Part shown: positions 1 to 56,439 of the stretch, piece after piece
Position numbering within the stretch: position 1 is the stretch's first letter
Layout of the letters: the number at the start of each line of letters is the position of its first letter
Source of the DNA: Symbiodinium natans
Lineage: Eukaryota > Sar > Dinophyceae > Suessiales > Symbiodiniaceae
NCBI GenBank assembly: GCA_905221605.1
Contig: CAJNDS010001435.1
Coordinates: 665,001-729,000 of the forward strand
Reading direction: 5' to 3'
DNA length: 64,000 nucleotides
Translations under genes and position numbers: made by a program
Notes under the pieces: model-generated
What the model saw: the letters and a program-made list of their open reading frames with translations, nothing else
What the model was told of the DNA's origin: nothing
The model's database searches: none

Positions 1-99
1 TCCGGGCGTCCAGAAGTCCCATTTCGGGTAGCAGTAGCTCTCTCCGAAGATGGGATCCGTGCACTTCTGGGAGTGGGTGCCGCAAGGGCAGGGCGTGCC
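1..99 (-). CDS. Exon of Cys-rich gene, cut by window edge
   Basis: A strong acceptor (TTTTTCGCCAG) is followed by GTPCPCGTHSQKCTDPIFGE and SYCYPKWDFWTPG up to base 1. It carries CPCG...KC (module end) and SYCYPKW (start of the next module). The open frame reaches the edge. Confidence 0.6.
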
Positions 100-3000
100 C
101 TGGCGAAAAAGGCCCAAAACTCGCTCTCGGGTTTAGGGTTTAGGGTTTAGGGTTTAGGGTTTAGGGTTTAGGGTTTAGGGTTTAGGGTTTAGGGTTTAGG
201 GTTTAGGGTTTAGGGTTTAGGGTTTAGGGTTTAGGGTTTAGGGGGTTTAGGGTTTAGGGTTTAGGGTTTCGGGTTTCGGGTTTCGGGTTTCGGGTTTAGG
301 CTTTTGAAGTTTAAGGTTTTGGGGCTGTAGGGGCTTCGGGCTTGGGGTGTGGGGGGGGATTGGGGGTTTGAAGGCTACAAGTCTGTAAAGGATCCTGCGG
401 CAAATGCACGCTGCCGAGCTCTTAAGGTGAAGCTTAGGCAGTTTTTGGGCCTTCAGGGGTTTCGGGCTTAGGGCAAGCAGCCTAAGGCCTCGGAAAGTGC
501 CTTGACCTAAAAAGCCAGGGGTTCGAGATAGGGTTCAGGGTTGAGGGCTTAGGGTTTAGGAGTTTGGGTTTAGAGTTTTGGGTTGAGGGTTTAGGCTTCA
601 GGGCTTAGGGTTCGGAATAGGGTTCAAGGGATCGGGTTTCGGGTATAGGGCCTAGGTGATAAGGTACAGGGTCTAGCTGGGCCACTGCTTGCCCTTGCCT
701 GGAGAGCTCGGCGAGGATGTCGATGAATGTCGAACTCTCAACCCTGAACCCTACATGTTCATCCCCATTGAAAAACGCACAAACCCCGCAAAATCAACTT
801 CAAGACTCGCAGCAGAAGAGGAGGAAGCCGTCAGGGTACAAGGTTTAGGAGCTTGGGGTTTAGGAGTTTAGGGCTTTCTAAATAGGCTTAGAACTACCGA
901 GGAAACGAGCCTTGGTAACACATTGTTCCTTGAAGCTCTCCGGGTAGCCTGTCGCGTTGTAGTCTGACTTGAAGCCTTTGCCGATGCGTCCAAGAAGTGA
1001 GACAACTTACTAGGATGACCTTTAACACCCTCTGAACAAGATTCCTAAATGGGATCCTCTTAAGCACAATAAAGGGAACATGTATATCCTACCTAGGTTA
1101 ACACACTGGGCCCATGTCACTGGAGTTGGTAGGTTCGGTAGCTTACAATGATGATAAGTACATAGGGATGAGGAGATGAGGAGATGCCAATATTGAGTTT
1201 GTTTGCTAAGGCTCCTGAGAGGAAAAACAGCTACACCCATGAGACCCTCGACAATCGAAACCCGAAACCCTAAACCCGTAAACCCTACACCCTAAGCAGA
1301 GCCAGGGAGCACTTCTCCTGGGTGCTGGAGCAGGTGACGGGGCAAGATTCCGCACTGGCGACGCAGTACTCCTCCGAGGAGGGTCAAACCCTGACACCAA
1401 ACCCTAAACCCTAAACCCTAAACCCAAAACCCAAAACCCAAATACCCAAACCCTAAAACCCAAACCCCTGAACCTAAACCCCAAGCCCTGAAGCCCAAAC
1501 CCTAAACGGGGATGAGAGTGCTAAGAAAGGGGAGGGGGAGGGCCTGGGGTCTATGCTGCTATGAAACTAGGGTTTCAGGGTTTAGGGTTGAGGGCAAAGT
1601 CTGCTCTTACAAAAAGAGAGAGCCCTTCCCCCCCCCTCCCCCGCCCCAAAGCCGCCTCCTCAGCACCGAACTCATCTGTCCACTTGCACATCTTCGCGTT
1701 GGCGCCACAGGGACATGTCTTATCCTTCGCCACACAGGTCTCGTTGATGGGAGCATTGTAGTCCTCAGTCACAGGGGTCTGGGGTTTTCGGCTGTGGGCT
1801 TTTGGGCTTCTTGGGCTATGTGTACGTAGGGGCTGAAGGCCTCCAGCAAGGTTGTGTGGAAAAATGGCCAAGGAACATAATCTCCCTCTGCCGTAAACGA
1901 GATGGGATAGCAGATCTTCTGGTCTTCAGAACACTGCACCGGACAGCCGTAAAATGTAGACTCGCAGTATGAGAAGCCGTCCACATTGCCTGCACCGCAT
2001 GAGCCCGCTCGTGACGCATCGTGCTGCTATAGCCGAGCCCGACAACTTAGGGAGTTGGTTCTTGGGTTGAGCTCCTGAAATCGAAATAAAAACAGACTGT
2101 CGATCCGAGGCACATCTCACGCTGTTCTCTCCACAGGGACACTCCTGCCCTTTGGGAGCACAACTGTCGGCGCCAGACAACCAGTTGCCTGGACAGTGAC
2201 AGGGCACTGAGAAGACAGGAGTCACATACCCTCAGCGACTGAGAGAAACAGCGACAAAGAGGGCGAGGAAGGGGGAACAGGGACAGGGGGAGGGCGTAGC
2301 TGCTCATGCGCATCCACAGACGCTCTCCTTTTCGCAGACTTTCAGTGTTCTCTGGGCGCTTCCCTTGTTTTGACCCTGGGCAGGGTTTACTCTCCTAAGC
2401 CCTAAACGCCTGCCTTTGGCATCGAAGTTTGTGAGCCAGCACTCCTGCTCCTGGTCGGTGCACTCTCGAGGGCACTCGTCCTCAGCTGTTAGGGTCTGAG
2501 AATGGGGCAGGGTCAGGGTTTGAGGACTTCCCTAAACCCTAAACCCTAAACCCTAAACCCTAGCCCCAAACCCTAAACCCTAAACCCTAAACCCTAAACC
2601 CTAAACCCTAAACCCTAAACCCTAAACCCTGAACCCTGAACCCTGAACCAACCGCAGCAAGGTTGCGGCTGCTGGGATGCAGTATGCTGAAAAGCCTGTT
2701 CCGCACAGTTTGGCCGTCGTGTCGCAGACGACCGGACAAAACCAGTCATCGTTCTGAGGCGAGCATGTGTCCTTAGGTGTAGGGTGTAGGGTTTAGGGTT
2801 TGGGGTTTAGGGTTTAGGGTTTAGGGTTTAGGGTGTAGGGTTCAGGCTTTCGGGCTTGGGGTCGGGAACCGAACACAGGGAGCTACAACGTTGTTCATCA
2901 GAGACGCAACTATTGCGCAATGGAAAGACTAAGGCCTAAACACTCTCCACACTGACTCCTAACACCTCTCCCAAAAACCCAAAACCCCAAACCCTAACCC

Positions 3001-6000
3001 CAAACCCTAAACCCTAAACCCTAAACCCTAAACTGCCTTTTTGCACAAGAGTCTTTCCACGTCATGAAGCCGTCGGAATCGAATCCTGCGCATGGACACT
3101 AGGCAACTCTCCAGTCTGCTTGGAGCAAGTCGCTACATGCAGGTTTACAGGTTCCCTCGATAAAGTTACGACGTCCAGCTACTTCAAGCAATGCTTCTAA
3201 CGACCCACGTGCCTGAAAATAGGCTCCCGGGCGGGGGGTCTTAGGGTTTTTGGCGCAAGGTGCGGTGTAACGGCGTGAGTCTTGGGATGTTCCCCCTTTT
3301 TAGTCCTTAAGAGGGATTAAAGTACCCCCTATTATAGTCCCCATTAAGGACTGTTAGAAGGCATCCCCGCGTGAGTCGAGCAAAGCGCGGCCAAAAAAGG
3401 CGTCCTACTTCGTAGCAGTACATCTCGTTGTCGGCGCACGTGAGCGGGCCTGAGATGAGGCCAAGAGACCAAACTGCACGAAGACCTGAACAACCCTCAG
3501 GGCCACCCACCCCCAAAGAAGTAACAAATATGACAATAACAATAACAATAACAATAACAATACCAATACCAATAACAATAACAATAACAATAACAATAAC
3601 AATAACAATAACAATAACGACAACAATAACGACAACAATAACAGTAACAATAACAATAGCAAGAAAAATAACAATAGCAATAACAATAACAATAAAAGTC
3701 ATAATAATAAGAAGAAGAATAATAAGAAGAAGAATACTAGTAACAAAAAGACGTGAGGCCGAAAACAAAGCCGAGCCAGGCTGCACTGACTATACCACTC
3801 CTTGGGGTAGCAGGCGTCCTTCCCATCCTCCTGCCGGCGCTTCGAGGGGCCCCAAAGCGAGAGTCAGAGCCCTACAAAGCCTGGAACCCCTGAACCCTAA
3901 ACCCTAAACCCTAAACCCTAAACCCTAAACCCTAAACCCTAAACCCTAAACCCTAAACCCTAAACCCTAACCCGTAGAACGCCTGAACCGCATCTGTGCC
4001 CCTTTTTTTTAGGGTTTAGGGTTTAGGGTTTAGGGTTTACGGTTTACGGTTTAGGGTTTAGGGTTTAGGGTTTAGGGTTTAGGGGCTCCGAGCAGGTGTA
4101 CTCGTTGTCTTCGCACACGCAGCCACTGGAAGTAGCGCACGACTCGTTCCCGGAGGTGTAGTGGTAGCCTTGGATCAGCCCGAGTCGCAAACCCCCGAAC
4201 CCTAAACCCTACACACTCTTAACCCCAGACCCTCAAAGCTCTCATATATCTCAACCCCCGGAATGCTCTAAGACTCTAGGTGTACTTGGAGGTTCATGGG
4301 TAGCTATAGGATGGGTTGCACGCGTGCTAGCCACAGTTTGGCACGCATCGGCCTACTTAGAAGCATCCATGAACCTCCATGCCTACCTTCGACACAACAG
4401 GCTGGGAAGTGAGGGTGCAGGGGAGCAGAACGGAATGGCAGGAGCTTTCTGCCGCTTTCGCGGCGAAACACCCTGAAACCCATAGAAGCCCCAGGCCCAG
4501 AACCCTTAACCCAAACCCTGAACCCTAAACCCCAAACCCCAAACCCTAAATCCTAAACCCTAAACCCTAAACCCTAAACCCTAAACCCCAGCTGCTTGGC
4601 GAGCAGCAGGTTTCCATGTCTCCACAGTCCACGGGGCAACTCTCGGATTTGGAGATGCACCAGCCTTGCGGAGGCCCTTAAAACCCTCTTGGGGTTTAGG
4701 GTTTAGGGTTCAGGGTTCAGCGTTTAGGTTTTAGGGTTTTGGTCTTCGGGTTTAGAGAGGGGCCTTCATGAGACCACCCCAAGAGGCAGAAGAGTGAGAA
4801 CGTAACATACGGGCCAACCAAGCAACCGAAAACACACAATTAAGGTTCTTTAGGGATAACTAAGCCGAATTCAGGCTATTTTGGGGGGGGAACCTAGCAA
4901 GGGAGGGTAGTATCGAGGGGTGTAGTAGAGGGGACCAAGAACCAAGCAGCCAAAACCGCATGACTTCTCCCACTCGGGGTGACAGGGACAGCCATCCGTC
5001 TCGTTGGCGCAGGTCTCCTGCAAGTGCCGAGTCAGAGCAAAGCTTTGGAGTGCTTCGCCAGCTTGAGACCACTTCCCCGAACCCTAAACCCTAAACCCTA
5101 AACCCTAAACCCTAAACCCTAAACCCTAAACCCTAAAGGCCCTCAAGGGAATTGGAGTCCTGGAGTTCGAGGACATGAGCAAGTCCATGCATCCTAAAAA
5201 TCTTTGCAGGTCCTTCCACGTCCCATACCAGTCGATCTCTCCGTTGGAGTCATAGGGCGTCTCATAGCAATACAGCCTCAGGAGTTTAGGGTTTAGGGTT
5301 TAGGGTTTAGGGTTTAGGGTTTAGGGTTTAGGGTTTAGGGTTTGGGGTTTGGGGTTTGGGGTTTAGGGTGCAGCCTCGCTTCCAGCCCTGACGGGGTCGT
5401 TCGAAATTATGAGGGTGGCCCTTCTGGTGCTCCGTTGACAAAGTGGCGTCCTGAAACCCTAAACCCTAAACCCTAAACCCTGGGATACCCCAGAAGGGTC
5501 CGTGATTCCTCATAGTTCAGGGTATCGCACCAGAAAGTCTCCGTAAACCGTTAAACCCAGGGCCCCACCATAAACCCTGAAACCCTAAAACCCTTAAGCC
5601 TAAAACCCTAAACCCTAAAACCCTAAAACCCTAAAACCCTAAAACCCTAAAACCCTAAAACCCCCAACAAGGAGTGCGCCTTTTCTCTCGCAACACTAAG
5701 CCCTAAACCCTAAACCCTAAGCCCTAAGCCCTAAACCTTCTCTCGGAACCCAGAGACGCCAAGAGACTGGTTGGCCGCACAGGACACCGGGCAGCTGCCG
5801 TAGACCTTCGACTGGCAGTAGGAGCCCCACTCCATCACGCAAAGCTCCTGTTGCGTTTAGGGTTTAGGGTTTAGGAATTAGGGCTTAGGGTTTAGGGTTT
5901 AGGGTTTAGGGCTTAGGGTTTCGGGTTTAGGGTTTAGGGTTTAGGGTTTAGGGTTTAGGGTTTAGGGTTTAGGGTTTAGGGTTTAGGGTTTAGGAAACGA

Positions 6001-9000
6001 ATCCCCGTAGTTCCGCGGATCTCGGGGAGTTTTCGGCTTTCAGCGGAGCAACGTAGTGGTCAGCAGCTTCTTAACATCTTGTGTTGCGCAGCCGGAGAGT
6101 GGTAGGAAGCTCCCATAGCTTCTTAGGGGCTTTGAGGAGCCGAGGGGCTGTTAGGGCAAAAGGGTATGGGGCTTTTCGTCTCCTTGTGTGGGTTCTTGGG
6201 GCTAGCGGTATGAGCACGCTCAAGAAGTGAATAAGAAACGTAGAGCACATACTCTTGCTCATGGTTACATAACGACATGGAAGTCAAGAAACTTAGAACT
6301 CTGCCTCCGGGAATACACTGCCTTGTGCAACATGTTTCCTGTAGGCTAAGCCTCTAGGGTTTAGGGTTACGCGTCTTGGTGAGGCGGGAACGGAGAAACA
6401 GCATACTACGCCCTGAAAACTTTCTATTTCTATGCCTGGCATAGGGCGAGGGGAGCACCCAGAGTCGTGAGAACACTACTTTTCATAAGATCCCGCAGTG
6501 CTTAGCCTCTACGGCTTCACGTTTGGAACCCTATACCCCAAACCCCAAACCCCAAACCCCAAACCCTAAACCCTAAACCCTAAAACCTAAACCCGAAACC
6601 CTAAACCCTAAACCCTATACCTTCCCTTCGGAGGTCTCCTCGTGCTGATCATCGCAAGGGCAATGTTGGTCCTGAGCCTGGCAGGTCCTTGGACAAAGGA
6701 GCGAAGACCCTGAACCCTACCCTAAGCCCTAAGCCCTAAGCCCTGAGCCCTAAGCCCTAAACCCTAAACCCTAAAATCGCTCCACACACACAGCCAGTGA
6801 TTCTGCACTCCCCTAACACAGGCCTTGTGTTGTAATATTGCTATACTTGCTATTTCAGGTATTCTCTTGTTCTATTGACTATATTGCTATATTAAGTGTT
6901 GTACTGGTCTATGAGCTATATGGTTAGATGGTCACATTCATCTGCAACATTAGCTCGCGGACGCAGCGTCTGATTGCCCGGCAACGACCAGTCCGGATAC
7001 CCGTCACCGCCGTATGGCGTATGCCAGCACACCTGACGTGAGACCATGGGCATCGCAATGCCAGCCCTTTTTGGGTTCAGGGTTCAGGGTTCAGGGTTTA
7101 GGGTTTAGGGTTTAGGGTTTAGGGTTTAGGGTTTTGGGTTTTGGGGTTTAGGGTCTAGGGTTTTGGGGTTTAGGATTTAGGGCGGAGACACATGAAAGCC
7201 CCTGCTCTGCACATCTGCTGTCTCAGGTAGCTAGGAGCTCTGGGCGCATTCAACAGCACGATGGCATTCGACCAACGCCCAGAGCCCTTGAAAAAATGAC
7301 TTGCAGGTACCGAGAGTCATAGAAGAAATATGCACGTGTGGTGGCTCAGGGAGGCTGATTGGGCTTTTTGGGCTTCGGGGATTTTTGGAATCAGCTGATA
7401 GAATCCGCAAAAGACACTCGCCATCGGTGGAAGCAAAGTGCTCAAGCATCAAAGGATACAGGAAACGAAATGATTGCCAACAATTACCCCTTAATAGCTT
7501 AATGGCGATTGCTACAACATAAGCTGCCCCGAATACCAATGGACCCTCAGAGCAGTAGGCCCTAGTCCTGAACCCTTAACCAGGTGAGCTTTCCTCATCC
7601 AGTGGCAGAATACAGCGTGGCTGATGCATACCCATCCCGACATCCCCACGCCATGATTGTTACAGATTTAGGGTTCAGGGTTTAGGGTTTTGATATGGGT
7701 TTAAGGCTCAAGGTTTAGGGTTTGGGCTTCAAAATTTAGGATTTAGGGTTGTCTAAAGCCTCGTCCCCTGCCTGTTGGTCATCGCCACAGGTGATGGGGC
7801 ACGAGTCTAACTTCGAGGTACACCAGCTCCCCCAATCGTCCGTGCACTTCTGCTCCCAGGTCGGATTCTTGGTTTTGAGGGTTGGGGTTTAGGGTTGCGG
7901 GTTTAGGGCTTAGGGTTTGGGCTTTAAGGTTGAGCGGTTTAAGGGCTTGGGGGTTTAGGGGTTAGGAGGTTGAAGGGAGTTTGAAAGTCCTCACGGGCTT
8001 TACATGGCCCTAAACCCTGAGCCCTAAGCCCTAAACCCTACACCCCTAAACCCTAAACCCTTAACCCCTAAACCCCTAAACCCTAAACTCCTCACTCAAT
8101 TGCCCGGTTTGGAGCTGCGACTGACAGTCGATTTTCGTTTTCGGATTTGGGGTTTGCGGCTTCAGTTCCTGGTTTAGAGTTTCGGTGTAAAGGGCAAGCC
8201 CCAAACCTTCAAACCCTCAAACCCCCAAAACACTAAAACACTAGCACCGCAAAACAAAAAACCCTCCATTTCAAACCCTGAGACCAAAATCCGCAAAAAG
8301 ACAACCCTAAATCCAAACCCTGATCCCTAAAGCCATCCTCCACCACTTAGAAGCAGGGTTGATGTTTATATGCCTTGCATCCCCAAAAGGACACCCAATA
8401 TATACACTCACCAACATTAAAAGGAATCTTACCTACACTCACCAATAACAGTCATGAACTGTTTGCTTAAGAAGCCCCCCAAAAAATAAGATGTTCTTCC
8501 CTATGAGGGAAATAAGGGAGGTAATTACTTTTTCTTTCTTGCAAAAACCCTAAACCCTAAAGCCTTAACCCTAAACCCTAAACCCTAAACCCTAGACCCT
8601 AAACCCTAAACCCTAAACCCTAAACCCTAAGCCCAAACCCTGTTTCACTTAGCTCTTCACATCCAGGAGGCGCATGGGCAGCCCTCGGCCAACGGGGCGC
8701 ACGTCTCATTGTACCCAGCCATCCAATCAACCTCTCCTCCAGAAAGGCACAGGGTTTAGGGTTTAGGGTTTAGGGTTTAGGGTTTAGGGTTTAGGGTTTA
8801 GGGTTTAGGGTTTAGGGTTTAATGTTTGGGGTTTAGGGTTTAGGGTTTAGGGTTTAGGGTTTAGGGTTTAGGGTTTAGGGTTGGGGCTTGGGGTTTAGGG
8901 TTTAGGGTTGGGGCTTGGGGTTTGGGGTTTGGGGTTTGGGGTGAGGCTCATAACTCTGGAGGCCTTCGCGGAACTCAAAGCCCCTAAACCCTGGAGAATT

Positions 9001-10948
9001 CTTGACGAGGCCTGTGGCATCGTCGTAGGCATAGGTGAAGCACATGGTCTCGTTGGAGGTGCAAAACAAGGGGCAGGGGCCCCATTCCTTGTCCCAACCT
9101 TGCTTCTCCAATAACCACGGGGAATCAGATTAAACTTTGTTAATTCCTACAGAATGAGGAAGGGAAATGAGGTTCAACTTTCTTAACTTCTACAGAATGA
9201 GGAAACCCAAAAGAGTTTAAAGCTCAACTCTTGGCGAAGTAAGCAACAATAAGAGGACCACTCGTCACGGCAAGTGTGTTCCTGAGCTCGTGGGCGCTGC
9301 CGGCTTTGGGGATTCCCAGCAAAAGGAGAGGTCTGCCATGCATGTTTGGGTTTGGGCATAGGGTTTCGGGTTCAGGGTTTAGGGTTCAGGGTTTAGGGTT
9401 CAGGGTTTAGGGTTTGGGGTTTAGGGTTTAGGGTTTAGGGTTTAGGGTTTAGGGTTTAGGGGTTAGGGGTTAGGGGTTTAGGGTCTAGGGTTTAGGGACA
9501 GCTGCCACTTGCTGCGAGCGTCAGTGGCGTTGTCACCTGAGCTGCGCCCCATCTGCAATTTTTAACCCGCGAAGCTCTAAAGTCCAAGACCTTCGGACTC
9601 ATTAACCCTAAACCCTAAACCCTAAACCCTCCTAAACCCTAAACCCTAAACCCAAACCCTAAACCATAAACCCTAAACCCTAAACCCTTTCACCCTAGGC
9701 CCTAGGCCCTAGCAGTGACGATGGCACAGCTCCGCAAGTGCTGTTCAGTCGCACGTCACGTCGTAAGGGTCGTAGCACCTGAGCTGCAGACCAACTGGCA
9801 AACGGCCGCAAGCCCCAACGTAAAGAAACACCTAGGCCTTCAAGCAAAGGCCTCCAAGGAGCCCTAAACCCTAAACCCCAGCCCTAACCCCTAAACCCTA
9901 GCCCTAAACCCTAAACCCTAGCCCTAAACCCTAAACCCCAAGCCCTAAACCCTAAACCCTGAAACCAAACCAACGGACCTCAACCCTGAGCAGCAACCCT
10001 AAGAATGCGGCAGGGGCTCCCCTCGGACTTCGGCGTGCAGACCTTAGGGTTTAGGGTTAGGGTCTGTTTTGAAGCGTTTCAAAACAAGGCGAGTCGTGAA
10101 CCTCCCGGCCTTGAAGCCCCACGACTCACAGGAGACCTCCCACTCCTCGTTGCAGGGGCAGCCTTCCTCGTAGGTCGCGCACGTCATCTTCCCGTCTGAC
10201 TCCCAGTCAACCTCCCCGTCGTCATCGTACTCAAACTGGTAGCAGCTCATCTCCTCACAGTAGCCTGGCAGGGAGATCATTCACCCCCGGAAGCGCCTTA
10301 TGCAACACGACCTGAGGCACGCTGCACCCTAAACCCTAAACCCCAAACCCTAAAACCCCAAACCCTAAAACCTAAACCCTAAACCCTAAGCATGAGATCT
10401 GGGGCGCACCGTAGAACCCACCGCCGTTGTATCCGCCGGCACCCCCGTTATATCCGCCCATGCCGTGGGAGCCGTTGTAATCATCGGGGTAGCCGCCCCA
10501 GTCGGAGTAGTTGTCATTGTAGCCATGGTAGTCGGAGTTATTGTAGTCGGAGTAATTGTACGTCGAATTGTCCGAATAAGTTAAATCGCTCTCTTGGTCC
10601 TCGGACTTCGTGAACATCAAGAACCCCTCCGCTCCCAACATCCCGCACCAAACCCGAAACACACTTAAAGCCCAAACCTACAAAACTCTCAGTCATAAGT
10701 CCCCAAATCCCCTAAACCCCCCCCCCTAAAACCCCGAAATCCCCCAAAACCCCCTAAATCTTCCGAAATCCCTTCAAACGCCTAAAACCCCTATTTATCC
10801 CTAAGACCACGAAACCCCTAAACAACCCTAAACCTCAACCCTAAACCCTAAACCCTAAACCCTACACCCTAAACCCTCAACCCTGGCAAGGCTCTCCGAT
10901 GGCTGTGGCAAGAAAGCTGCACAGGAGGGAGACTCGTAGAGGCCACAT
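1..10948 (-). CDS. Secreted Cys-rich multi-module protein (multi-exon gene, 3' end outside window)
   Basis: Gene-level entry. The first exon (10948-10882) encodes a typical signal peptide, so the product should enter the secretory pathway. A Tyr/Asp/Asn/Gly linker follows, then repeated ~75-85 residue modules. The module reads roughly W-x-SYC-x-S-x(3)-SCP-x2-C-x(4)-Q-x2-C-Y-x(3)-YD-x2-G-x2-DW-x(7)-TCA-x(4)-GCPC-x(3)-WE-x2-C. Pieces are spread over about 27 exons of 20-220 bp, separated by introns filled with TTTAGGG/CCCTAAA. Phases match across many joins (10948>10631>10264>10042; 9098>8736; 7867>7032>6812; 5847>5276>5017>4664>4168>3830>3449>3085), using GT, GC and GA donors with AG acceptors. 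I do not recognise the module as a named family; roughly 8-10 Cys per module suggests a disulfide-rich extracellular scaffold. Function unknown. The gene continues beyond base 1. Confidence 0.7.
130..295. repeat. TTTAGGG telomere-type array
   Basis: More than 15 near-perfect tandem TTTAGGG units followed by TTTCGGG variants. The array lies directly upstream (sense) of the last visible exon of the Cys-rich gene, so it is interstitial and not a chromosome end. Confidence 0.95.
905..1000 (-). CDS. Probable exon of Cys-rich gene (DYNATGYPESFKEQC)
   Basis: The minus frame GFKSDYNATGYPESFKEQCV resembles the Y-D/N-x2-G...E-x-C part of the module. Boundaries are uncertain. Confidence 0.4.
1300..1395 (-). 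CDS. Exon of Cys-rich gene (EEYCVASAESCPVTC)
   Basis: The minus frame reads SSEEYCVASAESCPVTCSST followed by QEKCSLA, again the YC...SCP-x2-C-x(3)-Q-x2-C segment. Splice sites are not resolved. Confidence 0.5.
1650..1775 (-). CDS. Exon of Cys-rich gene (ETCVAKDKTCPCG)
   Basis: The acceptor ACCCCAG is followed by a frame containing EDYNAPINETCVAKDKTCPC and GANAKMCKW. It completes the module begun in exon 1989-1840 (NETC...CPC...C). Confidence 0.6.
1840..1989 (-). CDS. Exon of Cys-rich gene (FSYC..YGCPVQC..CYPISF)
   Basis: The acceptor GGTGCAG is followed by NVDGFSYCESTFYGCPVQCS and EDQKICYPISFTAEGDYVPW. It covers the first half of a module without an internal intron. The 3' boundary is approximate. 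Confidence 0.6.
2098..2188 (-). CDS. Exon of Cys-rich gene (SCAPKGQECPC)
   Basis: The acceptor TCACTGTCCAG is followed by NWLSGADSCAPKGQECPCGE and NSVRCASDR. It is the W...SCA...CPC...C segment of the module. The GT donor lies near 2097. Confidence 0.6.
2408..2485 (-). CDS. Exon of Cys-rich gene (CPREC..CWLTNFDAKG)
   Basis: It reads EDECPRECTDQEQECWLTNF and DAKG. A GC donor inside AAAGGC, or the GT of CGTTTAGGG, ends it. It matches the CP-x2-C-x-D-x-EQ-x-C segment. Confidence 0.55.
2696..2771 (-). CDS. Exon of Cys-rich gene (DDWFCPVVC)
   Basis: The acceptor CCTAAG comes from degenerate repeat. It reads DTCSPQNDDWFCPVVCDTTA and KLCG. The GC donor after GGA-ACA-G (phase 1) is compatible with the CT-GAG start of exon 2485. 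Flanked by CCCTAAA left and TTTAGGG right. Confidence 0.55.
3036..3085 (-). CDS. Exon of Cys-rich gene (FDSDGFMTWKDSC)
   Basis: The acceptor is ATGCGCAG. It encodes FDSDGFMTWKDSCAKRQ before TTTAGG. The upstream frame has an in-frame TAG that lies in the intron if this acceptor is used. The donor is uncertain. Confidence 0.5.
3405..3449 (-). CDS. Exon of Cys-rich gene (CADNEMYCYEV), GA donor
   Basis: The acceptor ATCTCAG is followed by PLTCADNEMYCYEV. A GA donor in phase 1 joins to GA-TTC-GAT of the next exon, yielding CYEVGFDSDG with the spacing of CYQFEYDDDG. The alternative GT donor two codons earlier would break that spacing. Confidence 0.6.
   Translation of the reverse strand, partial: ARSRAPTTRCTATK
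3528..3695. repeat. AATAAC hexanucleotide microsatellite
   Basis: A tandem AATAAC tract with AACGAC and AATAGC variants, inside an intron of the Cys-rich gene. Long Ile-Val and Leu readings through it are artefacts. The same motif recurs at 14478-14625. Confidence 0.9.
3785..3830 (-). CDS. Exon of Cys-rich gene (ACYPKEWYSQ)
   Basis: The acceptor CGCCGGCAG is followed by EDGKDACYPKEWYSQ. The GC donor (AGT-CAG-T|GC) joins T+GC into a Cys codon and gives SQCPLTCADNEMYC, restoring the CP-x2-C-x(4)-E-x2-CY motif. Confidence 0.6.
3888..4083. repeat. Inverted pair of telomeric arrays with ~35-bp spacer
   Basis: CCCTAAA units fill 3888-3975 and TTTAGGG units fill 4008-4083, with a short unique spacer. 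In RNA the two arms could pair over about 70 bp. It lies within the intron between exons 4168-4089 and 3830-3785. Confidence 0.9.
4089..4168 (-). CDS. Exon of Cys-rich gene (SGNESCATSSGCVC)
   Basis: The acceptor GATCCAAG is followed by YHYTSGNESCATSSGCVC and EDNEYTCS. A GA donor (TCG|GA, phase 0) fits the phase-0 start of exon 3830. This exon breaks the flanking-polarity rule: TTTAGGG on the left, CCCTAAA on the right. Confidence 0.6.
4285..4382. mobile_element. Family-2 TIR element (CTTGGAGGTTCATGG)
   Basis: Starts CTTGGAGGTTCATGGGTAGC and ends with CATCCATGAACCTCCATG, an imperfect terminal inverted repeat. It is about 98 bp with no coding capacity. Related copies are at 46681, 51235-51354 and 54683-54788, with a single end at 35463. 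Confidence 0.6.
4587..4664 (-). CDS. Exon of Cys-rich gene (WCISKSESCPVDC)
   Basis: The acceptor CCGCAAG is followed by WCISKSESCPVDCGDMETCC and SPSSW. The GT donor is the first GT of the adjoining GGTTTAGG repeat (phase 1). This shows how telomeric repeat can directly supply a 5' splice site. Flanked by CCCTAAA (left) and TTTAGGG (right). Confidence 0.65.
4957..5017 (-). CDS. Exon of Cys-rich gene (ETCA..GCPC..WEKSC)
   Basis: The acceptor CACTTGCAG is followed by ETCANETDGCPCHPEWEKSC, the third segment of the module. The GT donor in phase 1 (TGC-G|GT) joins to GC-TGG-TGC of the next exon. Confidence 0.65.
5213..5276 (-). CDS. Exon of Cys-rich gene (CYETPYDSNGEIDW), GA donor
   Basis: It encodes LYCYETPYDSNGEIDWYGTW plus K. 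Only a GA donor (AAG|GA, phase 0) gives a sensible join. The product DWYGTWKETCANETDGCPC has the same spacing as DWESDGKMTCATYEEGCPC of exon 3. This is one of the clearer non-canonical donors in the window. Confidence 0.65.
5570..5670. repeat. CCCTAAAA octamer array
   Basis: Tandem CCCTAAAA (TTTTAGGG on the other strand) in place of the heptamer, locally homogenised. It is intronic in the Cys-rich gene. Confidence 0.85.
5768..5847 (-). CDS. Exon of Cys-rich gene (WGSYC..GSCPVSC)
   Basis: The acceptor ACGCAACAG is followed by ELCVMEWGSYCQSKVYGSCP and VSCAANQ. The GT donor in phase 2 joins to G-CTG-TAT of exon 5276 and gives CAANQLYCYETPYD, exactly the consensus. Flanks on the plus strand: CCCTAAA left (5698-5740), TTTAGGG right (5855-5995). 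Confidence 0.65.
6640..6720 (-). CDS. Exon of Cys-rich gene (CPRTCQAQDQHC)
   Basis: The open frame LCPRTCQAQDQHCPCDDQHE follows the CP-x2-C-x(4)-Q-x2-C pattern shared with CPREC, CPVVC and CPLTC copies. Exact splice sites are uncertain: acceptors at CCAAG or GGCTCAG. Confidence 0.5.
6780..6812 (-). CDS. Micro-exon of Cys-rich gene (ECRITGCVCGA)
   Basis: The acceptor GTGTTAG is followed by ECRITGCVCGAI. It supplies the C-x(4)-GCxC motif and is phase-compatible with the exon ending at 6978. The 3' end is unclear: a GC or GA donor next to GATTTTAGGG. Confidence 0.45.
6978..7032 (-). CDS. Exon of Cys-rich gene (CWHTPYGGDGYPDW)
   Basis: After CACGTCAG it reads VCWHTPYGGDGYPDWSLPG. The GC donor (CCG-G|GC, phase 1) joins to GG-GAG-TGC of the next exon and gives DWSLPGECRITGCVC, a shortened version of DW...TCA...GCPC. 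Confidence 0.55.
7772..7867 (-). CDS. Exon of Cys-rich gene (WEQKC..CPITC..)
   Basis: It encodes NPTWEQKCTDDWGSWC, then TSKLDSCPITCGDDQQ, the cleanest copy of the first half of the module. It ends CAG|GC in phase 0. The next exon, starting GTG-TGC-TGG, yields CGDDQQVCWHTPYGGDG, matching the C-x(4)-Q-x-C-Y-x(3)-YD-x-DG consensus. Confidence 0.6.
8340..8470. mobile_element. Family-3 element (contains TATATACACTCACCAA)
   Basis: A diverged copy of the element at 41452-41576 and 18605-18695. It shares GAAGCAGGGTT at the left and the internal motif CACTCACCAA twice. Non-coding, MITE-like. Confidence 0.55.
8661..8736 (-). CDS. Exon of Cys-rich gene (EVDW..GCPC)
   Basis: The acceptor is TTCTGGAG. 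It encodes EVDWMAGYNETCAPLAEGCP and CASW, with DW-to-TCA-to-GCPC spacing identical to exon 3. Without splicing the frame meets TGA at once; a GTGAAG donor lies just before that stop. On the plus strand the exon has CCCTAAA on the left (8545-8640) and TTTAGGG on the right (8752 onward). Confidence 0.65.
8752..8940. repeat. TTTAGGG array, intronic
   Basis: Over 20 tandem units grading into TTTGGGG variants. It forms almost the whole intron between exons 9098-9012 and 8736-8661 of the Cys-rich gene. Confidence 0.95.
9012..9098 (-). CDS. Exon of Cys-rich gene (CPLFC..CFTYAYDDATG)
   Basis: 87 nt. It encodes WDKEWGPCPLFCTSNETMCF followed by TYAYDDAT. It ends ACA-G|GC (GC donor, phase 1). Joining it to GA-GAG of exon 8736-8661 gives YDDATGEVDW, which reproduces the YDDDGEVDW of exon 3 exactly in spacing. 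That restored consensus is strong evidence for both splice sites. Confidence 0.65.
9225..9281 (-). CDS. Exon of Cys-rich gene (CRDEWSSYC segment)
   Basis: The acceptor CGAGCTCAG is followed in phase 0 by EHTCRDEWSSYCC. It is homologous to QKCTDDWGSWC (7867-7772) and VMEWGSYC (5847-5768), the start of the module. The 3' end is uncertain. Confidence 0.5.
9745..9778 (-). CDS. Micro-exon of Cys-rich gene (CYDPYD)
   Basis: After the acceptor CAGCTCAG the minus strand reads CYDPYDVTC and then meets a stop. A GT donor directly after CYDPYD is likely. It matches the CY-x(2-3)-YD core of the module. It is short and supported only by that match and the acceptor. Confidence 0.35.
9998..10042 (-). CDS. 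Exon 4 of Cys-rich gene
   Basis: It begins after an AAG acceptor built from degenerate CCCTAA repeat and encodes VCTPKSEGSPC. This continues the module with the C-x(3)-S-x(2)-SPC segment seen as TSKLDSCP and SKSESCP in other copies. The 3' boundary is uncertain. Confidence 0.5.
10110..10264 (-). CDS. Exon 3 of Cys-rich gene: most complete single Cys module
   Basis: 155 nt after the acceptor CTGCCAG. It encodes GYCEEMSCYQFEYDDDGEV, then DWESDGKMTCATYEEGCPC and NEEWEVSCESWGFK. This is the longest uninterrupted copy and the reference for the consensus: paired CY, YDDDG, DW, TCA, GCPC and WE..C. It ends AAG|GC (GC donor, phase 0). The next exon starts in phase 0 after AAG. The intron to exon 4 is only about 67 bp. 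Confidence 0.7.
10410..10631 (-). CDS. Exon 2 of Cys-rich gene: Tyr/Asp/Asn/Ser/Gly-rich linker
   Basis: 222 nt with phase 1 at both ends. It encodes an acidic start (TKSEDQESDL) and then a low-complexity stretch of NYSDYNNSDYHGYNDNYSD type that turns into GGYNGG repeats. It is probably a flexible, N-glycosylatable spacer between the signal peptide and the first Cys module. The GT donor after TAC-G joins to GC-TAC-TGT of the next exon and gives the continuous reading FYGYCEEMSC. Confidence 0.6.
10882..10948 (-). CDS. Exon 1 of Cys-rich gene: start codon and signal peptide
   Basis: ATG at 10948-10946 opens MWPLRVSLLCSFLATAIG followed by EPCQ: a short n-region with Arg, a hydrophobic core and a small-residue cleavage region. 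The exon is 67 nt and ends in phase 1 at a GT donor in degenerate telomere repeat. Upstream in sense direction lies about 245 bp of CCCTAAA, with AG just before the ATG that could serve trans-splicing; no spliced leader is visible. The next exon has a phase-1 acceptor, which supports this start. Confidence 0.65.
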
Positions 10949-11690: not shown

Positions 11691-12236
11691 CTAGGCTTTA
11701 GGCTTTAGGCTTTTTAGGCTTTAGGCTTTAGGCTTTTTAGGCTTTAGGCTTTAGGCTTTCGGCTTTCGGCTTTCGGCCTTCGGCTTTCGGCTTTAAGCTT
11801 TCGGCTTTAGGCTTAGGCTTTAGGCTTTTGGCTTTAGGCTTTAGGCTTTAGGCTTTAGGCTTTAGGCTTTAGGCTTTAGGCTTTAGGCTTTAGGCTTTAG
11901 GCTTTAGGCTTTAGGCTTTAGGCTTTAGGCTTTAGGCTTTAGGCTTTATGCTTTAGACTTTAGGCTTTAGGCTGTAGGCTTTAGGCTTTAGGCTTTAGGC
12001 TTTAGGCTTTAGGCTTTAGGCTTTAGGCTTTAGGCTTTAGGCTTTAGGCTTTAGGCTTTAGGCTTTAGGCTTTAGGCTTTAGGCTTTATGCTTTAGGCTT
12101 TAGGCTTTAGGCTTTAGGCTTTAGGCTTTAGGCTTTAGGCTTTAGGCTTTAGGCTTTAGGCTTTAGGCTTTAGGCTTTAGGCTTTAGGCTTTAGGCTTTA
12201 GGCTTTAGGCTTTAGGCTTTAGGCTTTAGGCTTTAG
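11690..12236. repeat. Homogeneous TTTAGGC variant array (~545 bp)
   Basis: Tandem AGGCTTT (TTTAGGC) units, more than 60 in a row, with a short TTTCGGC sub-block near 11757-11800. Every other array nearby is TTTAGGG, so this variant has been amplified on its own. It sits in the spacer between the two extracellular-protein genes. Confidence 0.95.
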
Positions 12237-12780
12237 GTGGAGACTCCAACATCTTCTGCAGAAATGACGACACTGGTCGTATGGCATGATAAGAGGGAAC
12301 CCCAAATAGCTCAACTCAATGGAATTTAGGATTCCCAATGCAGCAAGAGGGAATTCCGCACTCCAGCCAAAACATTGTCGTTGACACGGTCCTTTGTTCG
12401 TCAGCGAACCAAGTCTACAACGATTTGCGAGCTATCCGCTTCCTACAAATCAGCCGGGCGCACATCACAACCCTAAGGCGTAACCCCAAGAAGAACAGTG
12501 CAGCCGCAAGCATTTTCTCATTGCGTTGGGCTCAAAGGCCTCCGCCGAAGGCCTCCGCCTGGCCGGGAAGAGCGCAAACAGAATAGGGACCCTATCAAGG
12601 ACGAACCATCTTAGGATCTAGTATCTCGGCTTGCGGCTTTGGAGCGTGTGTTGTGGCAGGATGTAGGGATACAGTGCTCAGAAATTGGGTTACAGGGCTT
12701 AGGATTCAAGAGCCTGTACCACAAAACTGAGCCCCTAGATTCGCAGCAGAGGGGTTGCCCCATTGTGGGCATCCGGATGG
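12237..12780. other. Unique spacer with weak plus-strand ORF
   Basis: Unique DNA after the TTTAGGC array. A plus-strand ORF of 82 codons (12338-12586) has ordinary composition (VYNDLRAIRFLQISRAHI), but no start context, splice support or family match. Treated as unassigned. Confidence 0.3.
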
Positions 12781-14007: not shown

Positions 14008-14388
14008 TCAACTCAGCATTAACATGAGGGATGCGAGTAACACGGGTGCCAGCTGCATCTTCGTCGTGGCCGCCACCCATGCACCTCCCTCGCCATCACC
14101 ACCATCTGTGGTGTTGTCGGTCCAATTAGCTGTCACGGTGGTCTCGGTAGCTGTCATACTGGTGACGGTTGTAACCGTCGAGGTGTGCGTCATGGTAGCT
14201 GATGTCGAGGTCACCGTGACCGTCGTGATGGTGGTCGTCGTCGAGGTCGTTGTCGTCGTGGTCAGGTCCACGAGATCAACGACCACGCCATCATCAAGGA
14301 AGTCGGTCTCATAGTTGGTGCCGGCCGGCACGACCAAGATCTTGTTGTAGGCAAAACTGGCCATGCTGATGCTGACACTGTACATATC
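14008..14388 (-). CDS. Last exon: Thr-rich stalk and hydrophobic tail
   Basis: The acceptor TGACCCCAG is followed by DMYSVSISMASFAYNKILVV and PAGTNYETDFLDDGVVVDLV, then a Thr/Val tract (TTTTTTSTTTTITTVTVTST), an acidic N-glycosylatable segment (NWTDNTTDGGDGEGG) and finally MQLAPVLLASLMLMLS-stop. The frame upstream of the acceptor has a stop, supporting the boundary. Confidence 0.65.
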   Translation of the reverse strand, partial: DMYSVSISMASFAYNKILVVPAGTNYETDFLDDGVVVDLVDLTTTTTTSTTTTITTVTVTSTSATMTHTSTVTTVTSMTATETTVTANWTDNTTDGGDGEGGAWVAATTKMQLAPVLLASLMLMLS

Positions 14389-14608
14389 CTGGGGTCAGCA
14401 CTGCACACCGAACCGCTAGCCACGTTAGAAACCATCGGAGAAAGCAACCCCAAAACATGAGAAAGTCTGATTATTAAAAATAAATAACAATAACAATAAC
14501 AATAACAATAACAATAACAATAACAATAAAAATAACAATAACAATAACAATAACAATAACAATAGCAATAACAATAACAATAACAATAACAATAGCAATA
14601 ACAATCAA

Positions 14609-14664
<56 letters not shown>

Positions 14665-16851
14665 ATCTAAATCCAAGGATAGCGTCATTCTGGCAGCAGT
14701 CGGTCGATGTAGAGCTCTTGTTCGTATATCCTAAGGGGGATGCACCTGCAGGAATGTGCCCGCAGTCATCCACGGGCAACACCACGTAGCCCGCAAGCAC
14801 CGTCTCGTCCACGACGCCGTTCACCATGTTTGGCCCGAAGACGACGTCGCCTGCCACGGCAAGCAAGACAGGGCAGCAGCCGCACACAGCATCTCGATCC
14901 GACGCCGTGCAGCCGAGCTCCTCAACCCTGAAAACCTCACACCCAAAACACCGAAAACAGTAAACCATAACTCCGAAAACCGAAGACCGAAAACCCTAAA
15001 CCCTAAACCCTACACCCTAAACCCTAAACCCGAAACCCTAAACCCTCAACCCTCAACCCTAAACCCTACCCGCCAACCGGCCTGTGTAGTCGCCCGTCTG
15101 CTCATTGGTGTCCATGAAGGTCGCCTCACAGACGCGGCACTGGATGTAGGGGTCCTTGGCATGGAGCTCCAATCTTTCCTTGGCTATCTCGGACTTCAAC
15201 GGTTGAGGGTTTAGGGATTAGGGTTCAGGGTGAAAGGTTTGGGGTTTGGGGTTTGGGGTTGGGGGTTTCGGGTTTAGGGTTTAGGGTTTAGGGTTTAGGG
15301 TTTAGGGTTTAGGGTTTGGGGTTTGGGGTTTGGGGTTTGGGGTTTGGGGCTTGGGGCTTGGGGCTTCGGGCTTGGGGCTTGCGGTTTCGGATTCAGGGTC
15401 ATCAAGAAGCAAACTCAGCACTTCAAACCCTAAAGCCCAGTTGCCGTTGCAGCCCCCAACGCCGGGCAGAACCAGGTGTAGGTGCCTTAGTAGTCCAGTA
15501 ACCATATTACAATAAGGGCACCCGTTTTTGGGGTACCCCTAAACCCTAAACCCCAAACCCTAAACCCTAAACCCTAAACCCTAAACCCTAAACCCTAAAC
15601 CCTAAACCCTAAACCCTAAACATAACCAAAAAAGAGGGTAGAGGGTACCACTGTGCTACCAAGGTGCCGGCTGCCACACAAGCCGAGAGGTCGGTGCTGC
15701 TCCCGGCAGCGAAGGTCACCTCCCACGACCCGGAGGGTTTAGGGTCTAGGGTTTAGGGTTTAGGGTTTAGGGTTTAGGGTTTAGGGTTTAGGGCTTAGGC
15801 CTTAGGGCTCAGGGCTTAGGGCTTAGGGTTTATTGAAATTATGAAGTGTTCAGGTCCAAGGAAAGTTTCGAGGAGTTTCGATTTTTCGATTTTCCGTAAT
15901 AATTTCAAGTTAAAGGGGGCTTGAGGGTTCAGAGTTCAGAGTTCAGAGTTTAGGGTTTAGGGTTTAGGGTTTAGGGTTTAGGGTTTAGGGTTTAGGGTTT
16001 AGGGTTTAGGGTTTAGGGTTTAGGCCAACGTGCCTCACAGGTCGTCCCGACAGGAATGTCGTCGCAAGCTGCGCTACCCGAACGGTCCAAAGCACCAAAC
16101 TCCTCCCCATCGCGTGCAAGTGCGAAGGTGGCATTGCAACGTGCCGGGGTGGTCGTGGTGCTTGTTGTAGTGGAGGAAGTTGCAGTAGCCGACGTGCTGC
16201 TCGACGTGGTCGATGTGCCCGTGGCAGAGGACGAGGTCGAGGTGGTCACCGTGAGCGTCGTGCTGGTGGTACTTGACTCCGTGCCCGTGCTGCTGGAAGA
16301 GGTCGAGGTCGTGACCGTAAAGCTCGATGAAGTCGACGTTGTGACCGTGTTGCTGGAAGTGGTCGATGTAGTCACCGACACTGACGTGGTGGTGCTCGTA
16401 GCACTTGTTGATGTCAAGGTTGTCACCGTAATGCTGGAAGAGCTACTGCTGGAAGAGCTACTGCTGGTCGCCGAAACGGACGTGGTCGTACCTGTCGAGG
16501 TCGTCAGCGAGATGCTGGACGACGTCGAGGTAGTCGCCGTAGCCGTCGTGCTCGTGGAAGAGATGCTGGTCGACGTCAAGGTCGTCACCGTACTGCTGGA
16601 CGAGGTCGTGCTAGTCGCCGACATCGACGTAGTCGTAGTTGATGTGGCACTACCCGTGGCCGATGTCGACGTCGATGTCGTTAAAGACGCCGTGGTAGTC
16701 GTCGTAGTGCAAACCACATTGTCCATCGACTTGACCAGCATTCCCGGCGTGAAGGTCTCACCAATGGGGAAGCCCGACCAACACGTCTGAGAAGCTGCCA
16801 AGTCCACCATCGAAAGACAAACCTTAACTGTTCTTGGAACCCCTTCTTCGA
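14008..16851 (-). CDS. Ser/Thr-rich extracellular protein with C-terminal hydrophobic tail (multi-exon)
   Basis: Gene-level entry. Visible exons 16851-16023, 15719-15668, 15485-15437, 15195-15070, 14930-14665 and 14388-14008. The order is: a Cys-containing domain (SQTCWSGFPIGETF); a long mucin-like Ser/Thr-Val tract; a second Cys domain (DIPVGTTCEARW); several Cys-containing segments; a second Thr-rich stalk; and a C-terminal hydrophobic stretch before the stop (MQLAPVLLASLMLMLS). The stalk plus terminal hydrophobic tail suggests a GPI-anchored or tail-anchored surface protein, heavily O-glycosylated. The 5' end (signal peptide) was not found. An introner separates exons 2 and 3, and its removal restores ACVAAGTYTWFCP. 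Family unknown. Confidence 0.55.
14478..14665. repeat. AATAAC and AAT microsatellites
   Basis: An AATAAC hexamer tract followed by pure AAT trinucleotides (about 14610-14663), intronic between the last two exons of the Thr-rich gene. Confidence 0.9.
14665..14930 (-). CDS. Exon (GDVVFGPNMVNGVVDETV..)
   Basis: After GGTTGAGGAG the frame reads LGCTASDRDAVCGCCPVLLA, VAGDVVFGPNMVNGVVDETV, LAGYVVLPVDDCGHIPAGAS and PLGYTNKSSTSTDCCQNDAI. It is rich in Cys and small residues, as expected of an extracellular domain. The frame then enters a microsatellite (poly-Ile artefact), so a donor must precede 14665. Confidence 0.55.
15070..15195 (-). CDS. Exon (AKERLELHAKDPYIQC..)
   Basis: The minus frame reads SEIAKERLELHAKDPYIQCR and VCEATFMDTNEQTGDYTGRL. 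CCCTAAA lies immediately left and TTTAGGG right. Two Cys in CRVC. It is placed in the Thr-rich gene by position only. Confidence 0.5.
15437..15485 (-). CDS. Exon of Thr-rich gene (TYTWFCPALGAATATG)
   Basis: It starts right after the introner TIR (CTACTAAG|GCACC). Joined upstream it reads ACVAAGTYTWFCPALGAATA. GC donors are present near its end. Confidence 0.55.
15486..15667 (-). mobile_element. Introner, family 1, containing a nested telomeric array
   Basis: Sense strand: TIR CTTGGTAGCACAGTGGTACC at one end and GGTTACTGGACTACTAAG at the other, bounded by identical 7-bp duplications (AGGTGCC on plus, 15480-15486 and 15662-15668). The intron runs GC...AG, with AG being the last bases of the TIR. 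CCCTAAA units occupy 15537-15620 inside it. Confidence 0.7.
15668..15719 (-). CDS. Exon of Thr-rich gene (FAAGSSTDLSACVAAG)
   Basis: The acceptor GTGGGAG is followed by VTFAAGSSTDLSACVAA. The GC donor (GCC-G|GC) lies at the left copy of a 7-bp target-site duplication. The frame resumes at 15485 on the other side of the introner. Confidence 0.6.
16023..16851 (-). CDS. Exon: Cys domain, Ser/Thr mucin-like tract, second Cys domain
   Basis: The longest exon of the gene. A pyrimidine-rich tract (16856-16900 on the complement) and TTTAAG precede EEGVPRTVKVCLSMVDLAA and SQTCWSGFPIGETFTPGM. About 170 residues of Ser/Thr/Val repeats follow, then ARCNATFALARDGEEFGALD and DIPVGTTCEARW. The Thr tract uses ACC/ACG/TCG codons in short repeats and mirrors as Val/Asp/Glu-rich on the other strand, which should not be annotated. 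Confidence 0.6.
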
Positions 16852-17047
16852 CTTAAAGAAACAAACAAACTATGGAGAAAAAAAACAAACCAACAAAGGG
16901 GAAGAACAAAACCGCACGGTCGGTCTAGCAACAAGCATCAAGCATGCTCGCATGTCCTTCATGATGCGGTTCCGATTTCTCATATCTTCCCCCCCCCCTA
17001 GTGACTAGACTTCGAGCCGAGGAGGCTTGCCGGAGTTGGGCTTTCAT

Positions 17048-35140: not shown

Positions 35141-35225
35141 GGTTGAGGGTTGTAGGGTTGAGGTCACACTACCGAGTGGGCGCTGGGTTTGGGCGGATAG
35201 GGAGGGAGGCGAGTAGTGGAGCAAC

Positions 35226-41451: not shown

Positions 41452-41576
41452 CTACATGAAGTAGGGGTTATATTTCTTGTATTCCCAAAAGGACACCCAG
41501 TATATACACTCACCAATATTAAGAAGGAACCTTATATACACTCACCAAAAACAGAAATATATACCCTACTTCACAT
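41452..41576. mobile_element. Family-3 TIR element, best copy
   Basis: ACAT-GAAGTAGGGGTTATATTTC at the left; GAAATATATACCCTACTTC-ACAT at the right. Perfect 4-bp ACAT duplication and an 18-19 bp imperfect TIR. Two internal TATATACACTCACCAA motifs. 125 bp, MITE-like. Confidence 0.7.
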
Positions 41577-48268: not shown

Positions 48269-48319
48269 TGGGCACAGCGATGACCGTGCTGTTCGGCCTT
48301 CAACTAGCCAATATGTCCA

Positions 48320-51354: not shown

Positions 51355-51434
51355 TAGCTCCGAAGCCCTAAACCCTAAACCCCAAACCCTAAACCCCAAA
51401 CCCAAACCCTAAACCCTAAACCCCAAACCCTGTC

Positions 51435-51505
51435 CTGGACTCCGCGGCCCTCCTGATTGCCCAGTTCAGGGGATCCAAGGCGTGGGTTTCATCACAACCC
51501 GAGGT
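51435..51505 (-). CDS. Exon (CDETHALDPLNWAIRRAAES)
   Basis: The minus frame TSGCDETHALDPLNWAIRRA then AESR. D-x-x-H followed by a helix resembles block V of SGNH hydrolases, but linkage to the SGNH exons at 53-55 kb is unproven. CCCTAAA left, TTTAGGG right. Confidence 0.45.
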
Positions 51506-51611
51506 CCTGGACGGTTTAGGGTTTAGGGTTTAGGGTTTAGGGTTTAGGGTTTAGGGTCTAGGGTTTAGGGTTTAGGGTTTAGGGTTCAGGGTTCAGGGTT
51601 TAGGGTGTAGG

Positions 51612-56124: not shown

Positions 56125-56272
56125 CCCTTTGACATCCCAGGACTTCTGGATTTTGAGTGCTTTTGGGTCCTCTTGGTGCCCAGGAGCGACAAGATCACCC
56201 GAAGCGCGGTCCGCATGACTGGTTCGATGGTATAGTAACATAGAAGGAGAACGTGAGAAGCTACCAAGGCTG
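56125..56272 (-). CDS. Exon with hydrophobic helix (VASHVLLLCYYTIEPVMRTA)
   Basis: The acceptor CCCTTTTGGCTCAG is followed by LVASHVLLLCYYTIEPVMRT then ALRVILSLLGTKRTQKHSKS. Probably one membrane helix. TTTAGGG array (56281-56355) immediately right. Confidence 0.5.
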
Positions 56273-56439
56273 AGCCAAAAGGGTTTAGGGTTTAGGGTTT
56301 AGGGTTTAGGGTTTAGGGTTTAGGGTTTAGGGTTTAGGGTTTAGGGTTTAGGGGAGGCAGCTTGTTTCGGGTCCAAGGGCCAAATTTTTGAGACTTCGGG
56401 ATTGCGGATTGAAGCCTCCAAAAAAATTTGGAGAAAGGA

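Follow-up and report, generated by a model that had tools for sequence, protein, structure and literature searches.

The 64,000-nucleotide stretch of the Symbiodinium natans genome analysed here (contig CAJNDS010001435.1, positions 665,001–729,000 of the forward strand; hereafter the window) holds many arrays of the heptamer TTTAGGG or its complement CCCTAAA, with islands of unique sequence between them, and raises the question of whether the strand of an array is tied to the side of the exon on which it stands. (TTTAGGG)n is the telomere unit of dinoflagellates (PMC11453091). The arrays are not a terminal feature: the window lies inside a contig of 797,500 bases, and about 1.19 million three-unit 21-mers occur per strand genome-wide. 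Dinoflagellate genes are split into many short exons, and their donor sites are relaxed, GC and GA being used besides GT (PMC11453091), so that exon recognition is a question of interest; a repeat strand marking the exon side would be a simple, testable cue for exon finding and would show how a microsatellite can fill introns while respecting splicing. We find that the order of the arrays is biased in the window and genome-wide, that the biased class has exon-sized spacing, and that the bias is concentrated near exon edges. We put at roughly one in two the probability that slippage-prone arrays are filtered by splicing for the strand that they present near splice sites, above all near the acceptor.

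Order of CCCTAAA and TTTAGGG arrays

An array was defined as a perfect period-7 repeat of at least 14 nt, with same-strand pieces no more than 30 nt apart merged; a CCCTAAA array, a unique gap and a TTTAGGG array on the plus strand make up the C-then-G order, and the reverse order is G-then-C. In the window we identified 133 arrays spanning 7,886 bases. Adjacent arrays separated by 50–220 nt comprised 33 C-then-G, 18 G-then-C and 21 same-direction pairs, against label-permutation means of 18.1, 18.0 and 35.9, respectively. The comparison set of 14 other stretches (both flanks of the window, the left of which, L031, is N at 4,999 of its 9,999 bases; the start of the window's contig; the start of contig C1; a known array site on C1; and nine fixed-coordinate places on other contigs) yielded 40 C-then-G, 19 G-then-C and 42 same-direction pairs at these gaps (permutation means 25.3, 25.3 and 50.4). 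In the window and in the 14 stretches, 0 of 10,000 permutations of the labels were as extreme. The original prediction, made by eye from the window, was that exon islands are capped by CCCTAAA on the left and TTTAGGG on the right in a fixed polarity, in about 28 cases vs. 5. At all 16 of the islands that it listed, CCCTAAA does predominate in the 100 nt to the left and TTTAGGG in the 100 nt to the right; the claimed strength, however, exceeds the blind array counts, and what stands is a real bias, replicated elsewhere, rather than a fixed rule. Variant arrays gave few pairs (8 C-then-G vs. 5 G-then-C for TTTGGGG, and 6 vs. 2 for TTCAGGG).

The three-unit 21-mer, counted over 759,417,921 bases in 2543 contigs, occurs 1,185,204 times on one strand and 1,184,385 times on the other, and the backward control 21-mer has only 41 and 33 matches; at seven bases per match, array 21-mers make up about 2% of the genome. 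Given that both array strands are equally common, any effect of order must be local. Genome-wide order was counted on two-unit blocks as match starts, not as distinct sites. At a spacing of 0–30 nt, C-then-G matches numbered 2,282 vs. 6,284 G-then-C (ratio 0.36); the corresponding counts were 24,005 vs. 19,214 at 60–90 nt (1.25), 257,542 vs. 75,755 at 110–140 nt (3.40), and 143,516 vs. 134,098 at 300–330 nt (1.07). Among 100 listed C-then-G matches at 110–140 nt, all on C1, there were 40 distinct sites, from which the whole class can be put, very roughly, at 100,000 islands. Two-unit-block counts on the sampled DNA agree in shape with the genome-wide counts up to about 200 nt.

The two orders also differ in the sizes of the gaps that they enclose: in the window and the 14 stretches together, 60 of 95 C-then-G pairs enclose 70–160 nt vs. 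59 of 93 G-then-C pairs enclosing at least 200 nt. The C-then-G sizes are close to the exon averages of 101–158 bp in the first six of the seven columns of a published table (the seventh being 578; the columns are used here without their headings; PMC7245778), which fits an exon-sized spacing. A fixed-size mobile unit as the maker of the islands was considered and rejected, as the sizes are spread over 70–160 nt and the islands of the window are mutually unrelated.

Position of the bias relative to exons

We picked 57 exons without regard to repeats (19 of a cysteine-rich gene, 19 of kinesins, 11 called by codon usage on the minus strand of the window, and 8 of an ankyrin-type gene) and compared the heptamer strands, read in the sense of the exon, beside the edges of the protein cores. 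At 0–60 nt upstream, CCCTAAA prevailed at 20 exons and TTTAGGG at 4, the rest having none or a tie (p = 0.0015); at 0–60 nt downstream, TTTAGGG prevailed at 15 and CCCTAAA at 5, again with none or a tie at the rest (p = 0.041). The first 49 exons gave 15 CCCTAAA, 4 TTTAGGG and 30 none or tied upstream, and 14 TTTAGGG, 2 CCCTAAA and 33 none or tied downstream; raising the codon threshold (48 exons) gave 14 vs. 4 and 13 vs. 2. Adding the ankyrin exons (upstream, 5 CCCTAAA vs. 0 TTTAGGG) made the acceptor-side bias firmer and the donor-side bias weaker. Farther from the 49 exons, the counts at 60–120 nt kept the same direction without being significant (upstream 15 vs. 8, p = 0.21; downstream 13 vs. 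6, p = 0.17), and those at 120–250 nt were not significant either (upstream 12 vs. 11, p = 1.0; downstream 11 vs. 6, p = 0.33). Counted as heptamers upstream of the 19 cysteine-rich exons, CCCTAAA exceeds TTTAGGG by 206 to 33 at 0–60 nt and by 392 to 346 at 60–250 nt. The strand bias is strongest beside the exon, on the acceptor side, and the donor-side bias is weaker than the acceptor-side bias. Kinesin introns, mostly without arrays, show a mild excess of GGG after the exon (24, vs. 13 CCC).

Exons of the cysteine-rich, kinesin and ankyrin genes are established by protein pattern or Pfam, some others are suggested by codon usage, and the remaining islands are presumed exons. Two kinesin exons fetched by homology, L048 and L049, both stand in the claimed polarity, the downstream repeat of L048 falling below the 14-nt array threshold; 16 of the 17 kinesin exon cores at three other loci, and thus 16 of all 19 fetched, have no array within 250 nt. 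The ankyrin-repeat gene (L043, 2177–4031, plus strand) has about one repeat per exon, its exons being repeated blocks of 50–145 nt found by self-comparison, and three of three tested peptides match Pfam ankyrin families; almost every array in it reads CCCTAAA in sense, including those after exons. Codon scores per length were higher in 72 C-then-G gaps than in other gaps (Mann–Whitney, 1 × 10−8), and reversed copies of the C-then-G gaps also score high (6.65 vs. 5.68), so that the coding-like score partly reflects base composition. A clear codon-usage strand was found among the 32 C-then-G islands of the window for 8 on minus and 1 on plus, and among its G-then-C gaps for 4 on minus and 2 on plus. 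A Pfam scan of window 30–40 kb (minus strand, three frames) gave no family, and counting open frames in array gaps was uninformative on coding status. The islands concerned include:

15071–15199, minus strand: exon called by codon usage, in the C-then-G gap 15069–15269
31471–31584, minus strand: exon called by codon usage, overlapping the predicted island 31463–31572
33419–33523, minus strand: exon called by codon usage, inside the predicted island 33420–33540
37827–37922, minus strand: exon called by codon usage, overlapping the predicted island 37800–37895
51366–51586, no strand assigned: C-rich array, predicted island 51435–51505 (presumed exon) and G-rich array

The cysteine-rich gene provides the most detailed case. 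Its putative exon cores were recognised by their cysteine pattern, its arrays come from the array listing, and one intron was folded; arrays are given as upstream or downstream in the sense of the gene unless stated otherwise:

1–10,280, minus strand: part of a cysteine-rich multi-exon gene with 19 putative exon cores, most introns containing telomere-like arrays
2530–2630, minus strand: CCCTAAA array left of the core 2700–2771 (in sense, TTTAGGG after the exon)
2700–2771, minus strand: exon core DTCSPQNDDWFCPVVCDTTAKLCG
2787–2834, plus strand: TTTAGGG array right of the core 2700–2771 (in sense, CCCTAAA 15 nt before the core)
4092–4166, minus strand: exception, core with a G-rich array 31 nt upstream and a C-rich array 7 nt downstream
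4594–4665, minus strand: exon core GWCISKSESCPVDCGDMETCCSPS, C-rich array 26 nt upstream, G-rich array 5 nt downstream
5207–5275, minus strand: exon core LYCYETPYDSNGEIDWYGTWKDL, C-rich array 8 nt upstream, G-rich array 69 nt downstream
5276–5764, minus strand: intron with G-rich arrays at the 5′ end, predicted to form a hairpin with the C-rich array at the 3′ end
5764–5847, minus strand: exon core ELCVMEWGSYCQSKVYGSCPVSCAANQS, C-rich array 7 nt upstream, G-rich array 43 nt downstream
8663–8713, minus strand: exon core YNETCAPLAEGCPCASW, C-rich array 37 nt upstream, G-rich array 32 nt downstream
10128–10259, minus strand: exception, core with a G-rich array 66 nt upstream and a C-rich array 69 nt downstream

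When the nearest arrays within 250 nt are considered, 6 of the 19 cores show the claimed order, 4 the reverse, and 9 have arrays on one side only, in the same direction or not at all. Arrays occur in 14 of the 18 inter-exon gaps, and 6 gaps hold one array. Where that single array is C-rich (two of two gaps), it ends 26–29 nt before the next exon core; single G-rich arrays end 62–68 nt before the next core in three of four gaps and 24 nt before it in the fourth.

Splicing as a proposed filter and alternative explanations

Under the explanation that we favour, introns would gain many arrays of the TTTAGGG heptamer, spread and lengthened mainly by repeat slippage, and splicing would then select which array strand may adjoin a splice site. 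Close upstream of an exon, over some 60 nt, the C-rich strand would be tolerated: with no AG in its unit it provides no false acceptor, C and T make up more than half of it, and it could supply CTAAA-like sequence for a branch point. A G-rich array in that position would repeat the false acceptor TTTAG|GG with each seven-base unit, and it could also form G-quadruplexes. Within the first ~60 nt after the exon the G-rich strand would be favoured, more weakly. Intronic GGG runs help donor choice in other eukaryotes. Acting together, the acceptor and donor filters would move an exon toward CCCTAAA–exon–TTTAGGG on either DNA strand. Such a filter fits the findings because the bias lies near exon edges, the spacing is exon-sized and no common body was seen among the introns sampled. 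Arrays of other G-rich units occur beside the TTTAGGG arrays, for which reason the arrays look like slippage products: the longest among those listed by Tandem Repeats Finder, at window 11692–12237, has about 78 copies of TAGGCTT (a TTTAGGC variant), the same list includes 29 copies of GGGTTTTA, 26 of TGGGGTT and 15 of GGGGTTTGGG, and further G-rich arrays of other units lie at window 17050–17236, 34931–35159 and 36778–36927.

Several observations weigh against this explanation. False-acceptor avoidance accounts for the 3′ side only, and kinesin introns, mostly without arrays, show no depletion of AG in their last 60 nt (66 AG vs. 64 CT). The exon edges used are those of protein cores and not proven splice sites. 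Nor is the reach sharply 60 nt, as TTTAGGG still exceeds CCCTAAA by 380 to 65 heptamers at 60–250 nt downstream of the cysteine-rich exons. Taken alone, the cysteine-rich exons give counts at 0–60 nt that are not significant (upstream 8 vs. 3, downstream 5 vs. 2), and 4 of the 19 cores are fully reversed. Almost no bias is seen at 0–60 nt around 17 codon-called exons in the cysteine-rich region (upstream 8 CCCTAAA vs. 6 TTTAGGG, downstream 6 TTTAGGG vs. 5 CCCTAAA). Downstream of the 8 ankyrin exons, TTTAGGG prevails at 1 and CCCTAAA at 3, several of the ankyrin exons being scored on one or two heptamers, and 8 codon-called plus-strand exons left out of the 49 have a single CCCTAAA case upstream and none downstream. 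A looser exon caller, which in a reversed-sequence control gave 61 decoys to 117 calls (about half of its calls being false), yielded 78 calls in the 14 stretches; with half of them expected to be false, they gave 7 vs. 3 exons upstream and 8 vs. 7 downstream, and at 60–120 nt downstream their heptamers are reversed (82 vs. 185).

The original prediction offered a splice function as one of two readings, and this is the better supported of them, with the bias strongest within about 60 nt of the exon and C-then-G gaps of exon size; its details on the donor and on pairing did not prove general. The motif GGTTTAGGG is not a general donor, as inspection by eye suggests that the repeats begin about 17 nt (kinesin exon L048) and 38 nt (kinesin exon L049) after what look like GC-type donors, and only 3 of the 14 array-bearing gaps in the cysteine-rich gene start G-rich and end C-rich. 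A stronger version of the splicing explanation would have TTTAGGG in RNA signify ‘intron begins’ and CCCTAAA ‘intron ends’ at about 100,000 islands, actively read by the splicing of a lineage with non-canonical splice sites, perhaps via telomere-repeat-binding or GGG-binding proteins or quadruplexes; we regard this as possible but doubtful.

A different role in splicing, which we consider unlikely, is that TTTAGGG at the start and CCCTAAA at the end of an intron pair as inverted repeats, folding the intron and drawing the exons together, as described for the introners of Amoebophrya, with the polarity selected or carried in as a hairpin. The intron 5276–5764, the only one folded, has a predicted end-to-end hairpin of −228.2 kcal/mol (z = −6.65; none of 100 shuffles did as well), and G-then-C matches exceed C-then-G matches at 0–30 nt genome-wide (6,284 vs. 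2,282). Amoebophrya introners carry inverted repeats of 8–20 nt at the intron ends that form hairpins, said to join exon ends (PMC7789003), and Prorocentrum cordatum introns are enriched in introner elements (PMC10666404), so that dinoflagellate introns with inverted repeats at both ends are known. In contrast, the S. natans repeats are tandem telomere-type heptamers that mostly do not stand at both ends of one intron: the G-rich start and C-rich end are combined in the 3 of 14 gaps noted above and 6 gaps hold a single array, although some gaps may hide missed exons. Masked self-BLAST of the window and 19 loci, a small sample, gave 55 distinct matches (9 with the window), namely local duplications, related exons and two short dispersed families, and no body common to the array-bearing introns.

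It is still less probable, in our view, that orientation was fixed at birth and not selected afterwards, with arrays slipping from G/T-rich donor-side sequences and CTAAAC-like branch-point sequences. Such seeding agrees with a bias that is strongest near the exon on both sides and with some donors that, read by eye, pass directly into a repeat, as in AAG|GTATAGGGTTTAGGG at the exon core 6621–6686, whereas the arrays of other units and the single mid-intron arrays speak against it; with the present data it is inseparable from selection.

The second reading of the original prediction, that exons were telomere-capped fragments joined end to end, found no support. It would require that telomerase capped gene breaks with TTTAGGG at both ends and that the pieces were rejoined, leaving an exon–TTTAGGG/CCCTAAA–exon intron, which we judge highly improbable. 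This process predicts the symmetric polarity observed, telomeric repeat insertion at break repair has been reported in primates and rodents (PMC7215372), and G-then-C matches at 0–30 nt are 2.75 times as numerous as C-then-G matches genome-wide. However, joined pieces fit badly because abutting head-to-head junctions, which do exist, are rare: only 2 of the 93 adjacent G-then-C pairs in the window and the 14 stretches are separated by up to 40 nt and 4 by up to 70 nt, and the 6,284 matches at 0–30 nt compare with 1.19 million array 21-mers per strand (about 2.4 million on both). The fading of the bias for arrays farther from the exon, the frequency of same-direction neighbours (50 of 132 transitions in the window), and the separate source that the other G-rich arrays would need also count against it. 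An assembly or sampling artefact, suggested by the difficulty of assembling repeats and by the choice of the first islands by eye, is hardly credible, as the blind array statistics replicate in the 14 stretches and in the genome-wide counts, both array strands occur equally often in the genome as a whole, and the S. natans assembly was built from PacBio plus short reads (PMC8045281).

Related systems and other sequences in the window

Like the GGG-run intronic splicing enhancers of other systems, the arrangement described here tends to have C/T-rich sequence before the acceptor and, less surely, G-rich sequence after the donor; unlike in those, a telomere-type microsatellite supplies these sequences across a genome. 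Interstitial telomeric sequences are likewise arrays of the telomere unit inside chromosomes, but here there are more than 1 million matches per strand, many in introns and oriented by exons. Eimeria, also an alveolate, has dispersed TTTAGGG arrays in its telomere-like repeat bands, for which the cited passages mention no exon-linked polarity (PMC9131526). In the related dinoflagellate Polarella glacialis one simple repeat, (TTG)n, covers much of the genome (19.1% and 18.5%; PMC7245778); the unit differs, and the cited passages on it mention no exon polarity. Dispersed TTTAGGG arrays and a simple-repeat-rich genome are therefore known already from Eimeria and Polarella, respectively. The exon-linked polarity is apparently new, no description of it having been found in the literature searched, in which subscription papers were mostly out of reach. 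Existing transcripts would allow a direct test of this genome-wide, quantitative pattern, which gene finders could use for calling exons in repeat-rich dinoflagellate genomes.

Exact repeat units thin out at window 40–44 kb (17 per 4 kb) and 60–64 kb (4 per 4 kb), and the 10 kb directly right of the window are without any array. Long hexanucleotide arrays (ACAATA / AATAAC) lie at window 3533–3695, inside an inter-exon gap of the cysteine-rich gene, and at 14483–14661. One of the two dispersed families occurs at window 3321–3357 and 29359–29392 and at five other loci (L033 9159–9248, L034 7250–7338, L036 6932–6965, L038 1552–1609 and L047 292–324); by eye it is palindromic at window 3286–3360 and L047 290–395, and it is perhaps a small inverted-repeat element within introns. 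The other, seen after masking, occurs at window 41471–41559, 8389–8424 and 18632–18675, at L042 5300–5366, and at L043 2790–2876 and 6172–6238. A tandemly duplicated stretch (period about 467 bases) occupies L041 6304–7745, in an array-rich region.

Rfam (at gathering scores) and ARAGORN gave no matches in the window. A 388-aa open frame on the minus strand (57426–58592) apparently encodes a hydrophobic single-exon protein; it matched only its own protein among 8000 candidates scored, and it matched no Pfam family. Among the four window frames compared with Pfam, one other frame had a weak ZapB match below the cut-off. Two further open frames on the minus strand, at 14008–14394 and 16013–16852, are Thr/Ser-rich, and the first of these ends in a hydrophobic tail, resembling a mucin-type or anchored surface protein.

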